Part shown: one piece after another, positions 34,398 through 37,750 of the stretch | How positions within the stretch are numbered: position 1 is the first letter of the stretch | Layout: every line of letters starts with the position of its first letter | Source: Pseudomonadota bacterium | Lineage (GTDB): Bacteria > Desulfobacterota > Binatia > Binatales > Binataceae | Direction of reading: 5' to 3' | DNA length: 64,000 nucleotides | Assembly (NCBI GenBank): GCA_021324455.1 | Contig: JAJPJA010000042.1 | Coordinates: 1 to 64,000, forward strand | Program-made: the position numbers and the translations under genes | The notes under the pieces: model-generated | Database searches by the model: none | Told to the model about the DNA's origin: nothing | Seen by the model: only the letters and a program-made list of their open reading frames with translations

Positions 34398-35195
34398 TTG
34401 CAGCTTCGTTTTGCGGGAGAGCCATTGCTCAGGCAATACATAGTCGATGCCCGCCGGGTCCCATGGAAGAGCGGCCAGACCGAGGGCATCACCTTCCGCT
34501 GCCAGGTTTTTCTGAGCGGCGCTGACGGCGGACCGGAGGCGATCCGTTTTCGTTTCGACCCCTGCCCCAGGGTTTATGCACACATGCATCTGACCTCGCA
34601 GTTCCAGTTGCTGCTCGACGGCTTTATGGATTTTCCCAAATCGACCATGAAGCTGCGGCCTATCGCGATCCATTACGCCGACCACAACCTCCCCTACGGC
34701 CCGTTCTCCACCGGCGATGGCCACGACATGCTGGTACTGCATCCCAGAGCCGGCGGGCTGGTCACGATGGCGGATCGGGCGGCGCGCAAACAGATCAATC
34801 TGGCCGGACGCCAACTGGTCGGCATGGACAAGGACCGGCAATGGTTCGGGGTCGCCGCAATCGAGCGGGCGCGCTGCAAGTTCCTGATTGATCCCGGCGC
34901 GGGCCCGCAAGCCATCATGCTGCAAGCTCCGCCCAACTGTACGATTCCCGGCCCCGCGCCCCGCTTCGGCCGCTACGAAATCGTGCTGGATGGCAGCGCC
35001 GAATTCGACGGCCAGATGCTGGCCGCTCCCGGCTTGCGCTACGCCGCGGGCGATGAGCCGCCGGCGCCCATCCGGACCGGTCCGCAGGGCGCCACTTTGA
35101 TGCTGGTGGCGTTCGACGAGGACGCGCTGGCGGGCGGTCTGGGCGAGGATCCGCTGTCGCGCGCCGCGGCCGCGGCAATCGAGCAGGCGATCTGA
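34398..35195 (+). CDS. hypothetical protein, cupin-like (double-barrel) appearance
   Basis: 265 residues, soluble. Contains H-M-H-L-T-S-Q-F-Q-L-L-L and H-Y-A-D-H-N-L-P-Y-G-P-F, histidine-rich strands that suggest a cupin barrel, followed by a second beta-rich half (R-F-G-R-Y-E-I-V-L-D-G-S-A-E-F-D-G). TTG start at 34398 is uncertain. Family not recognised. It precedes the DsbA-family and selenoprotein genes on the same strand by 21 nt. Confidence 0.6.
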   Translation: MQLRFAGEPLLRQYIVDARRVPWKSGQTEGITFRCQVFLSGADGGPEAIRFRFDPCPRVYAHMHLTSQFQLLLDGFMDFPKSTMKLRPIAIHYADHNLPYGPFSTGDGHDMLVLHPRAGGLVTMADRAARKQINLAGRQLVGMDKDRQWFGVAAIERARCKFLIDPGAGPQAIMLQAPPNCTIPGPAPRFGRYEIVLDGSAEFDGQMLAAPGLRYAAGDEPPAPIRTGPQGATLMLVAFDEDALAGGLGEDPLSRAAAAAIEQAI

Positions 35196-35216: not shown

Positions 35217-35870
35217 ATGCCCGTTGAAGCGAGCGCGCCGGACAATTCCTCCTTTCGGGTGATTATGTTCGCCGATTTCATCTGCCCCTACTGCTACATC
35301 GGACAGGAGCGGATGGAACAGTTGGCGCGCGATTATCCCGTGACTCCGGTGTGGCGTCCGCACTGGCTCCATCCGGAAACCCCTCCCGAAGGCGCCGCGA
35401 TTCCCGCGGACCGCGAGCGCGCCCGCGCCACCGCGCAATGGCTCAATGAGATGGCGCCGGAGAAGGCCGCGCGGATGCGTTTTCCGGGCAAGCTGCAGTA
35501 CAGCTTCTTCGCCTTCGAAGCGGTGGAGTTCGCCCAGGAATGCGGCCGCGCGCTGGCCTTTACTTCCGCGGTTTACGACGCGCTGTGGGTCGACGGCAAA
35601 GATATCGCACAGGTTGCCACGCTGCAGGAAGCCGCAAGCAAAGCGGGCCTCGACGCCGGCGAAATGGGACGGGCGCTGCGCGAGCGGCGCTACCTGCAGC
35701 GCACCCTCGACGCGGTGGCGGCCGCGCGCAGCGCCGGCATCGTCAGCACTCCGACCTACATTCTGGGCCGCACCGCCATCAAAGGATGGCATTATTACGA
35801 AGTGTTTCAGACCGTGATGGAAAAACAGGGTATCAAGCCCAGGCATCAAACCGGACCGCAATCGGAGTGA
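35217..35870 (+). CDS. DsbA/FrnE-family dithiol oxidoreductase (CPYC)
   Basis: 217 residues, thioredoxin fold with the redox motif Cys23-P-Y-Cys26, inserted helical domain, and cis-Pro loop V-S-T-P-T-Y. No signal peptide, so cytoplasmic like FrnE. The last codons and stop lie in the first copy of a 15-bp tandem repeat. Starts 21 nt after the cupin-like gene; likely an operon with the selenoprotein. Confidence 0.85.
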   Translation: MPVEASAPDNSSFRVIMFADFICPYCYIGQERMEQLARDYPVTPVWRPHWLHPETPPEGAAIPADRERARATAQWLNEMAPEKAARMRFPGKLQYSFFAFEAVEFAQECGRALAFTSAVYDALWVDGKDIAQVATLQEAASKAGLDAGEMGRALRERRYLQRTLDAVAAARSAGIVSTPTYILGRTAIKGWHYYEVFQTVMEKQGIKPRHQTGPQSE

Positions 35871-35944
35871 CCGCAATCAGAGTGACCGCAATCAGAGTGA
35901 CCGCAATCAGAGTGACCGCAATCAGAGTGACCGCAATCAGAGTG
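35855..35944. repeat. 15-bp tandem repeat, six copies
   Basis: Unit ACCGCAATCAGAGTG repeated from 35855 to 35944; the first copy has G in place of A at one position, the other five are identical. It runs from the last codons of the DsbA-family gene to 13 nt before the selenoprotein ATG. Each copy has TGA in the DsbA frame, so copy number cannot lengthen that protein. Confidence 0.95.
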
Positions 35945-35957
35945 AGAGGATGATTCG

Positions 35958-37715
35958 ATGGCGCGCAGACCGGCTCAAGGCAAATATCAGGTGGTGTGGC
36001 CGCGCGGGAAGAAAATCGTCGATAAGGTTCAGCCCGCCCCACGCCTGGATACGCTCAACGGCAAGACCGTCGCCGAACTGTGGGATTACGTGTTCCGCGG
36101 CGAAGAGATCTTTCCCGTAATCGAATCCGAACTGGCCGCGCGCTTTCCCGGGGTTAAATTCATCAGCCCCGATCGATTCGGCAACACCCACAGCACCGAG
36201 GAGCGCGGCGTGCTGGCGGCGCTGCCCGATCGCCTGCGCGAAATGGGCGTCGACGCCGTCATCTCCGGCATGGGATGTTGAGGCAGCTGCACGCCCGCCG
36301 TGATGCGGGCCGCAGCCGTGGCCGAGAAAGCGGGCATCCCCAGCGTATCGCTGGTGTGCCAGGGGTTTGCCGGACAGGCGTCGACCACCGCCGAGGGATT
36401 GGGCTTCTCCCACATGGCGGTGGCGCTGATGCCCGGCCATGTCAACATGCAGACCTACGAGGAACTCAAGAACAATCTGCTCGAAGTAACAGTCGATCAG
36501 GTGGTTAAAGGCCTCAGCGAGGAGCCGGGCGACAACCAGCAGCGCGCCGCCGAGCCGCAGCCCACGGATATCGTCTTCAGCGGCAGCTTCGAGGAGGTCA
36601 ACGACTTTTACTACGACCGCGAATGGAGCGACGGTCTGCCGATCGTGCCGCCCACGATCGACAAGGTCGAGCAGTTCCTGCGCTTTACCCAACGCGCGCG
36701 CGAAGAAGTCCTGGGCGTGCTGCTATGCGACCGGCGCGAAGCCACGATCTGGAATATCGCGGTTAACGGCGTGATGGCGGGATGCCGTCCCGAGTACATG
36801 CCGATCCTGATCGCCATCGTGGAAGCGATGGCCGATCCCGGCTACGGCCTGGAGCATTCGGGCAACACACCCGGACCGGAAACGCTGATCATCCTCAACG
36901 GCCCGCTGATCAAGCAGCTCGGTTTCAATTATCAGCAGGGCGCGCTGCGCGACGGCTTTCGCGCCAATACCAGTATCGGACGCTTTGTGCGGCTGTACCT
37001 GCGCAACGTCGCCGGCTTCCTGCCGCACAAGACCGACAAGGGCACCTTCGGCGGCACCTGGCGCGTGGTGATGGCGGAGAACGAGGATGTATTGGCCGAT
37101 ATCGGATGGGAGCCGCTGTGCGCCGATATGGGTTTCAGCGCGGGCGACAACGTGGTCACGATCGCGCGCTACACCGGCGGCGATACCATCGCCAACGCCT
37201 CCGGCACGACGGCGGATCGGATCATGCCATACGTCGCCGACGCGGTGGTGCGCGCCAACCTGGGATGGCATCTGACGTTCACCTGCGGGATGGTGGTCGG
37301 CACGCTGCGCCCGCTGGTGGCGCTGTCGCCGCTGATCGCGGCAACTATCGCCAAATCCGGATGGAGCAAGCGCGACGTGCGGCAGTACCTGTTCGATCGC
37401 GCGCGCATCCCGGCCCATGAGTTCGACAAGCAACTGTTCCAGTATCTGGCCGGCGCCGATCACCCCACGCGTACGCTCGAGGAGCGCGTCAGGCTGGGAG
37501 AAATTCCGAAAATTTTCTGCCAATCGTCCGATCCGAACCGGATGGTGCCGATTGTGGTCTCGCCCGACGATTTCATGGTCGCGGTGAGCGGCGACCCGTC
37601 GCGCGATAACGGTTACGCCTTCTCTCACAATGGTTTCATCGGCTACCCAACCGCAAAGAAGATCCGTCTGCCGGATGACTGGAACAGCCTCCTGCGCCGG
37701 CATGCCGGGAGCTGA
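35958..37715 (+). CDS. UGSC-motif selenoprotein, UGA at 36279-36281 read as selenocysteine
   Basis: 585 residues with one in-frame TGA, codon 108, which would otherwise split it into 35958-36281 (107 aa) and 36300-37715. The codons around the UGA read G-M-G-C-U-G-S-C-T-P-A-V, and the downstream frame continues without a break into V-M-R-A-A-A-V-A-E. U-G-S-C is the motif that gives a known selenoprotein family its name; I recall its core as a UGSC followed by helix. A SECIS-like stem-loop sits at 36286-36316. Residues after about 200 form a separate C-terminal domain (G-L-P-I-V-P-P-T, F-G-G-T-W-R-V-V), unrecognised. ATG 35958 follows GAGAGGA at 7 nt. Terminator at 37719. The family reaction is unknown; U-x-x-C is redox-competent. 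Confidence 0.85.
36286..36316 (+). promoter_or_regulatory. bacterial SECIS-like stem-loop
   Basis: Lower stem GCTGC (36286-36290)/GCAGC (36312-36316), internal loop ACG/CC, upper stem CCCGC (36294-36298)/GCGGG (36305-36309), apical loop CGTGAT. The apical loop starts 17 nt after the UGA, within the 16-37 nt range known for bacterial SECIS elements, and holds a G-U dinucleotide of the kind SelB contacts. Confidence 0.65.
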
Positions 37716-37718
37716 CAT

Positions 37719-37750
37719 GTATTGTTGGAACCAATAGTACTTATTTTTTG
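37719..37750 (+). terminator. intrinsic terminator of the selenoprotein operon
   Basis: GTATTGTTGG (37719-37728) pairs with CCAATAGTAC (37731-37740) with two G-U pairs, followed by TTATTTTTTG. It lies 3 nt after the selenoprotein stop, which supports 37715 as the real gene end. Confidence 0.75.

Follow-up and report, generated by a model that had tools for sequence, protein, structure and literature searches.

The gene at positions 35958..37715 on the forward (+) strand of the window, the whole 64,000-nucleotide stretch of DNA that was analysed, appears to be a genuine selenoprotein gene, in which a SelB-dependent SECIS element located just after an in-frame UGA at codon 108 would direct the insertion of selenocysteine (Sec) to give a two-part product of 585 residues; on the sequence comparisons set out below, this reading is assigned a probability of about 97%. 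The TGA in question (36279..36281, + strand) is the sole interruption of the frame, which is open from there to the final stop, TGA 37713-37715, and its residue context, G-M-G-C-U-G-S-C-T-P, places U108 in a UGSC motif. The ATG at 35958, the in-frame TGA at codon 108 and the open frame up to 37715 had been described in a first-pass annotation of this DNA, and all were reproduced, as was the length of the product. A Shine-Dalgarno-like GAGAGG (35944..35949, + strand) lies 8 nt 5' of the ATG. A terminator had also been proposed after the final stop; a weak hairpin is indeed found there (37719..37740, + strand, -8 kcal/mol, z -1.7), with a T-rich run behind it, but it is absent from the output of the consensus terminator scan, and a terminator at this place is thus only plausible. 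Rfam models, searched against the window at their gathering thresholds, gave zero matches. The stretch ahead of the gene carries a 15-bp unit, GACCGCAATCAGAGT, in tandem (6.1 copies, 98% match, window positions 35854-35945), an array that begins at the tail of the upstream DsbA-like gene and reaches the Shine-Dalgarno region ahead of the ATG.

The relatives of the gene speak most directly to the decoding of codon 108. Searching 84,980 species genomes yielded 80 loci, with 65 full-length relatives readable at the site, and because the search patterns were either based on the C-terminal domain or had the site spelled as Cys, the sample is without bias towards UGA. The position equivalent to codon 108 is TGA in 61 of these 65 relatives, Cys in four (L091; L092, from Tardiphaga; L098; and L104), and any other codon in none, so that a comparison with homologues returns Sec (UGA) or Cys and nothing else. 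The orthologues in two other genomes of the window's genus, at 83-85% identity, retain the TGA. Across the relatives, the frame downstream of the UGA is conserved at 49-89% identity. The Sec insertion claimed at codon 108 by the earlier annotation is hence supported by this TGA/Cys-only pattern, by a conserved SECIS and by the sel genes of the genome.

The same data bear on the view that the UGA is a real stop, whether by nonsense mutation, in a pseudogene or through sequencing error, and that the rest of the frame is dead or separately started (e.g. from GTG 36300). A mechanical list of open reading frames splits the gene at UGA 36279 in just this manner, yet a real stop is contradicted by a TGA that is common to two congeneric genomes and to the great majority of the relatives, by the conservation of the downstream frame, by a SECIS that is kept at synonymous sites, and by a complete sel machinery in the genome; the probability of this view is negligible. 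A one-base sequencing error in particular is excluded, as the TGA is repeated in the two congeneric genomes and in dozens of independent assemblies. An equally slight chance is given to the notion that UGA 108 is read, by recoding or suppression, as an ordinary amino acid such as Trp. The frame is open on either side of the UGA, as such readthrough would have it, but the replacement seen in relatives is always Cys, TGA also terminates this very gene, and a bacterial SECIS and a tRNA-Sec with the anticodon TCA were both found. Two side observations from the scan are that one relative (L106, 6001-7701) contains another in-frame TGA close to its C-terminus, at codon 564, and that the relatives include contigs of a 'Candidatus Binatia' MAG.

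The bacterial SECIS hairpin lies within the coding sequence at about 36283..36319 (+ strand), with an MFE of -22.2 kcal/mol. Its core (36293..36310, + strand) consists of GCCCGC (36293-36298), the loop CGUGAU (36299-36304) and GCGGGC (36305-36310), which gives an upper stem of 6 bp, a loop of 6 nt with a G at loop position 2, and a distance of 17 nt from UGA to loop. As set out in the rules given for bacterial SECIS elements in PMC13188914, the loop should measure 3-9 nt, the stem 4-16 bp and the spacing 16-37 nt, the MFE should be <= -7.5, and a G should stand within the first two loop positions (PMC13188914); the window hairpin lies within all of these published limits. The hairpin that the first-pass annotation had noticed after the UGA is real, although the 17 nt that it had quoted is the distance to the apical loop at 36299-36304 and not to the hairpin as a whole.

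Against dinucleotide shuffles the hairpin stands out only modestly (z -1.75 to -1.94), so that comparative evidence was needed, and that evidence is decisive. Among 79 distinct UGA loci, the stem cells are paired in 453 of 474 cases (96%) and the stems are complete in 67 loci, while 300 rounds of synonymous-codon shuffling, with codons redrawn from each gene's own usage, gave a mean of 59% paired, a maximum of 64% and <=7 complete stems; as such shuffles break shared ancestry, this contrast overstates independence. Two further results are independent of that inflation. A complete SECIS stem is present in none of the four Cys relatives, which serve as a natural control, and in a second UGSC subgroup the stem is another one, GUCGUGG/CCACGAC, which is shifted to a neighbouring register and is 95% paired. 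Codon choice within the stem follows suit: the Pro codon is CCC in 73 of the 79 loci compared with 34% elsewhere in the same genes, and the Arg codon is CGG in 75 of the 79 compared with 24% elsewhere. Judged from these alignments, conservation of the SECIS stem is far in excess of what amino-acid constraint demands.

The machinery for Sec insertion was searched for in the window's genome and all four components were found: selA (564 bits), selB (375 bits), selD (385 bits), which itself has a TGA at the usual N-terminal site and is thus Sec-containing, and selC, the tRNA-Sec (70 bits), with the anticodon TCA (UCA). A loose threshold is uninformative for the tRNA, since at E 0.001 a match is obtained in 96 of 96 genomes and in 14 of 14 controls; for this reason only strong matches, of about 65 bits or more or with E below 1e-9, were accepted. 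In a panel of other genomes, SelB and tRNA-Sec are present in nine of nine genomes with the UGA form and are both absent from three of the four with the Cys form. The exception, L091, is a Cys fusion in a genome that has SelB and tRNA-Sec, yet its SECIS stem is already broken, and perhaps it represents a recent change from Sec to Cys. In one genome of the window's class that is rated 100% complete (G041), which has UGA forms of UGSC (contig C35; L013 and L076), SelB and tRNA-Sec were not found, whereas both were found in G087 of the same genus; our guess is that a stretch of the G041 assembly is missing.

The window's genome holds further candidates of this kind. A second UGSC selenoprotein is encoded as a split pair (L134, G000:C83), in which the UGSC frame has a UGA at codon 100, in the context 'SSUGSCMSCSSHD', and lies downstream of a stand-alone gene for the C-terminal domain. 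There is also a short PrdB-like (PF07355) frame at G000:C15:6662-7018, and as the PrdB-like frames of relatives continue past a UGA, this frame is probably another selenoprotein gene.

The N-terminal part of the product (residues 11-187, 35988..36518, + strand) belongs to the UGSC family, as the first-pass annotation had proposed from its motif: the match to Pfam PF24696 covers the whole model, at E 2.2e-28 and 100 bits, against a cut-off of 25. It shares with this family (PF24696; NF041046) the UGSC motif with its UGA, and differs in that the NCBIfam equivalog NF041046 scores 48.7 bits, under its 125-bit cut-off, and in the presence of a fused C-terminal domain. The family is not new, nor, very probably, is this two-domain layout: in 2008 the Global Ocean Sampling survey reported the UGSC family, its abundance, and, in Fig. 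S1A, a fusion termed UGSC/'Unknown_1' (PMC2398784). In that fusion, as in the window protein, a UGSC selenoprotein is joined to a conserved domain whose function is not known, and the two are very probably the same arrangement.

The second part of the product, which the first-pass annotation had put at about 380 residues, corresponds to residues 205-585 (36570..37712, + strand) and belongs to no Pfam or NCBIfam family; searches of six proteins with this C-terminal domain (C-domain) against both collections gave nothing credible. Across 58 sequences, and numbered on the window protein, the invariant positions are D225, G226, P232, A268, G275, C276, N337, R342, R345, N350, E374, W384 and P458. 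The structure model of the C-domain is confident (pLDDT 93.5), but despite this the domain on its own had no secure fold match. Two folds were considered and set aside, namely that of the Toblerone-fold cyclic amide hydrolases (best Z 6.7, rmsd 6.1, 165 residues) and that of class I fumarases (Foldseek E about 1e-3, TM about 0.2), both at a level that is untrustworthy. Stand-alone copies of the C-domain are common, and a single genome of the window's class can hold as many as about a dozen. In haloarchaea the UGSC module and the C-domain are encoded by separate, abutting genes, an arrangement that supports a joint function; these pairs of UGSC and 'hypothetical protein' share both modules with the window protein, and differ from it in that they are annotated as ordinary open reading frames with no stop in the motif.

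Directly upstream of the fusion gene lies a gene for a DsbA-like thiol-disulphide oxidoreductase with a C-P-Y-C motif (35217..35870, + strand; Pfam DSBA, E 6e-26), which is preceded by a conserved gene of unknown family (34398..35195, + strand) with no Pfam or NCBIfam match, which synteny places upstream of the DsbA gene throughout the window's group. The order of unknown gene, DsbA-like gene and fusion is that of the window's genus and is kept in two other genomes. Among relatives a frequent cluster order is fusion, C-domain paralogue and a gene for a thioredoxin reductase (TrxR)-like flavoprotein. The flavoprotein gene lies within 2.5 kb on the same strand in 26 of 79 loci and on the opposite strand in none, and the paralogue is found downstream on the same strand in 29 of 79 and on the opposite strand in three; beside the window's own fusion gene the TrxR-like gene is absent. 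These flavoproteins score 207-236 bits against TIGR01292, under its 343-bit cut-off, and so are named TrxR-like only and are not certified as TrxR. Other frequent neighbours in relatives are CoA-transferases, acyl-CoA dehydrogenases and Bug-type solute-binding proteins, which point to organic-acid catabolism.

The model of the window protein (pLDDT 92, pTM 0.92) has an alternating beta/alpha domain of five strands at residues 35-190, in which Sec108 immediately follows the third core strand (100-106) and precedes helix 111-124. Its best VIA-align matches are Rossmann-like domains (PurE, SDR and B12-binding type, Z 9-10); the list is filled with such domains at Z 8-10, which indicates a common arrangement rather than a relative, and thioredoxins are absent among the matches listed. 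Foldseek gave no match of note to the whole model (MetH, FtsZ and fumarase at TM about 0.2), and sequence searches of the PDB found no relative, whether the query was the protein, the A1 profile or the GrdB-like profile. As modelled, the UGSC domain would be Rossmann-like and does not look thioredoxin-like, though a match list of this kind is compatible with a thioredoxin fold.

This has consequences for the alternative that the gene encodes a true selenoprotein that is built on a thioredoxin-like fold and acts as an enzyme of general thiol-disulphide chemistry or of peroxide defence, and not as a GrdB-like reductase. The UxxC motif and the DsbA-like neighbour in the window's genus would suit such an enzyme, and UGSC is called thioredoxin-like by its authors in the two reports cited, of 2008 and 2026 (PMC2398784, PMC13188914), but the position of Sec after the third strand of a five-strand alternating beta/alpha domain and the nature of the best structural matches, PurE and SDR enzymes in place of thioredoxins, are at odds with it, as are clusters that hold CoA-transferases, acyl-CoA dehydrogenases and solute-binding proteins and not stress genes. 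A thioredoxin-like defence enzyme is therefore regarded as rather unlikely.

A different affinity is suggested by profile comparison. With hhalign the UGSC profile matched that of GrdB at 86% (E 4.9e-6), and a widened UGSC profile did so at 91% (E 1e-6, 100 columns), matches that have a one-residue slack at Sec and extend over 64-100 columns of shallow profiles; the C-domain, taken as a negative control, gave 5%. With PrdB-like proteins the value was 77%, in an alignment that kept Sec and the second Cys in register, and it fell to only 12.5% with the widened UGSC profile. The GrdB-like proteins of relatives stop at a UGA, and when read on their sequence is 'GVDAVILTST-U-GTSTRCGAALAKEIEKMGIP', to which the UGSC counterpart, 'GVDAVISGMGC-U-GSCTPAVMRAAAVAEKAGIP', is strikingly similar. 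The window protein shares with GrdB and PrdB (PF07355, TIGR04483) a Sec in a loop after 'xDAVI', the pattern UGxxT or UxxC, and then 'E..GIP.V'. It differs from them in that PF07355 had no match in it at E up to 1 and TIGR04483 reached E 0.088 and 12 bits where 300 are required, in that no GrdA, GrdC or PrdA partner was seen for it, and in that its fused domain is unrelated to GrdB. On these profiles the UGSC domain is likely to be akin to GrdB. In bacteria of the window's class, which lie outside the classic amino-acid-fermenting clostridia, GrdB-like selenoprotein genes with a UGA in 'TSTUGTST' were also noted (L116-L121).

The most likely mechanism, put forward tentatively and at slightly less than even odds, is that of a GrdB-like selenol reductase that receives its electrons from thiols and acts in organic-acid catabolism. 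Located where the third core strand ends, the Sec-x-x-Cys pair would form a reductive centre as in GrdB and PrdB, of glycine and D-proline reductase, and the substrate would be bound or activated by the C-terminal domain. Electrons would be supplied by a thiol system, through the TrxR-like flavoprotein that is encoded beside the gene in many relatives, with the DsbA-like protein as a possible source in the window's genus, and the setting would be the catabolism of organic acids and not defence against oxidative stress. When this mechanism is stated together with the selenoprotein claim, and the whole is weighted to the latter, the combined statement is held to be very likely. It is also conceivable, if doubtful, that the fusion, the stand-alone C-domain paralogue and the TrxR-like flavoprotein constitute a new class of selenium-dependent reductase, in which one chain unites a selenol centre resembling that of GrdB and a substrate domain of new fold, with NAD(P)H feeding in via a dedicated flavoprotein, for the reductive cleavage or reduction of organic acids or CoA esters in largely non-fermentative bacteria.

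One further role for a true selenoprotein would be that Sec binds a metal or a selenium or sulphur species, for delivery or detoxification, without catalytic reduction. In this respect, selB is near 8 of the 79 UGSC loci (on the same strand and within 2.5 kb in seven), and many stand-alone C-domain proteins exist that lack Sec; the proximity of selB is, however, easily explained as a supply of Sec machinery, and the TrxR-like neighbours point to redox turnover, so that a binding role seems improbable when set beside the GrdB-like reductase.

In the portions covered of the literature that mentions UGSC with selenoproteins, the resemblance to GrdB, the non-thioredoxin model, the TrxR-like cluster and an evolutionary test of the SECIS were not found. 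A literature search for a connection with Binatota yielded nothing of use. As new elements we infer a Rossmann-like and GrdB-like UGSC domain, a C-domain that belongs to no Pfam or NCBIfam family, and clusters with the TrxR-like flavoprotein and the paralogue. The fusion is present in dozens of assemblies from several phyla, and for a family known since 2008 without a function, the present leads open its role to experiment in strains that can be cultured, among them Xanthobacter aminoxidans ATCC BAA-299 (L073) and Novosphingobium sp. MW5 (L058), in both of which the TrxR-like gene follows the fusion and SelB and tRNA-Sec are present. The analysis adds a well-supported selenoprotein, of a kind whose genes standard gene calling can truncate at the UGA. 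A case in point is plasmid p2-T1 of Acidovorax sp. T1, a conjugative IncP plasmid, where the annotation at a related fusion (L131, 5929-8602) consists of a 97-codon 'hypothetical protein' stub; this fusion is likely to be a selenoprotein that annotation has missed.
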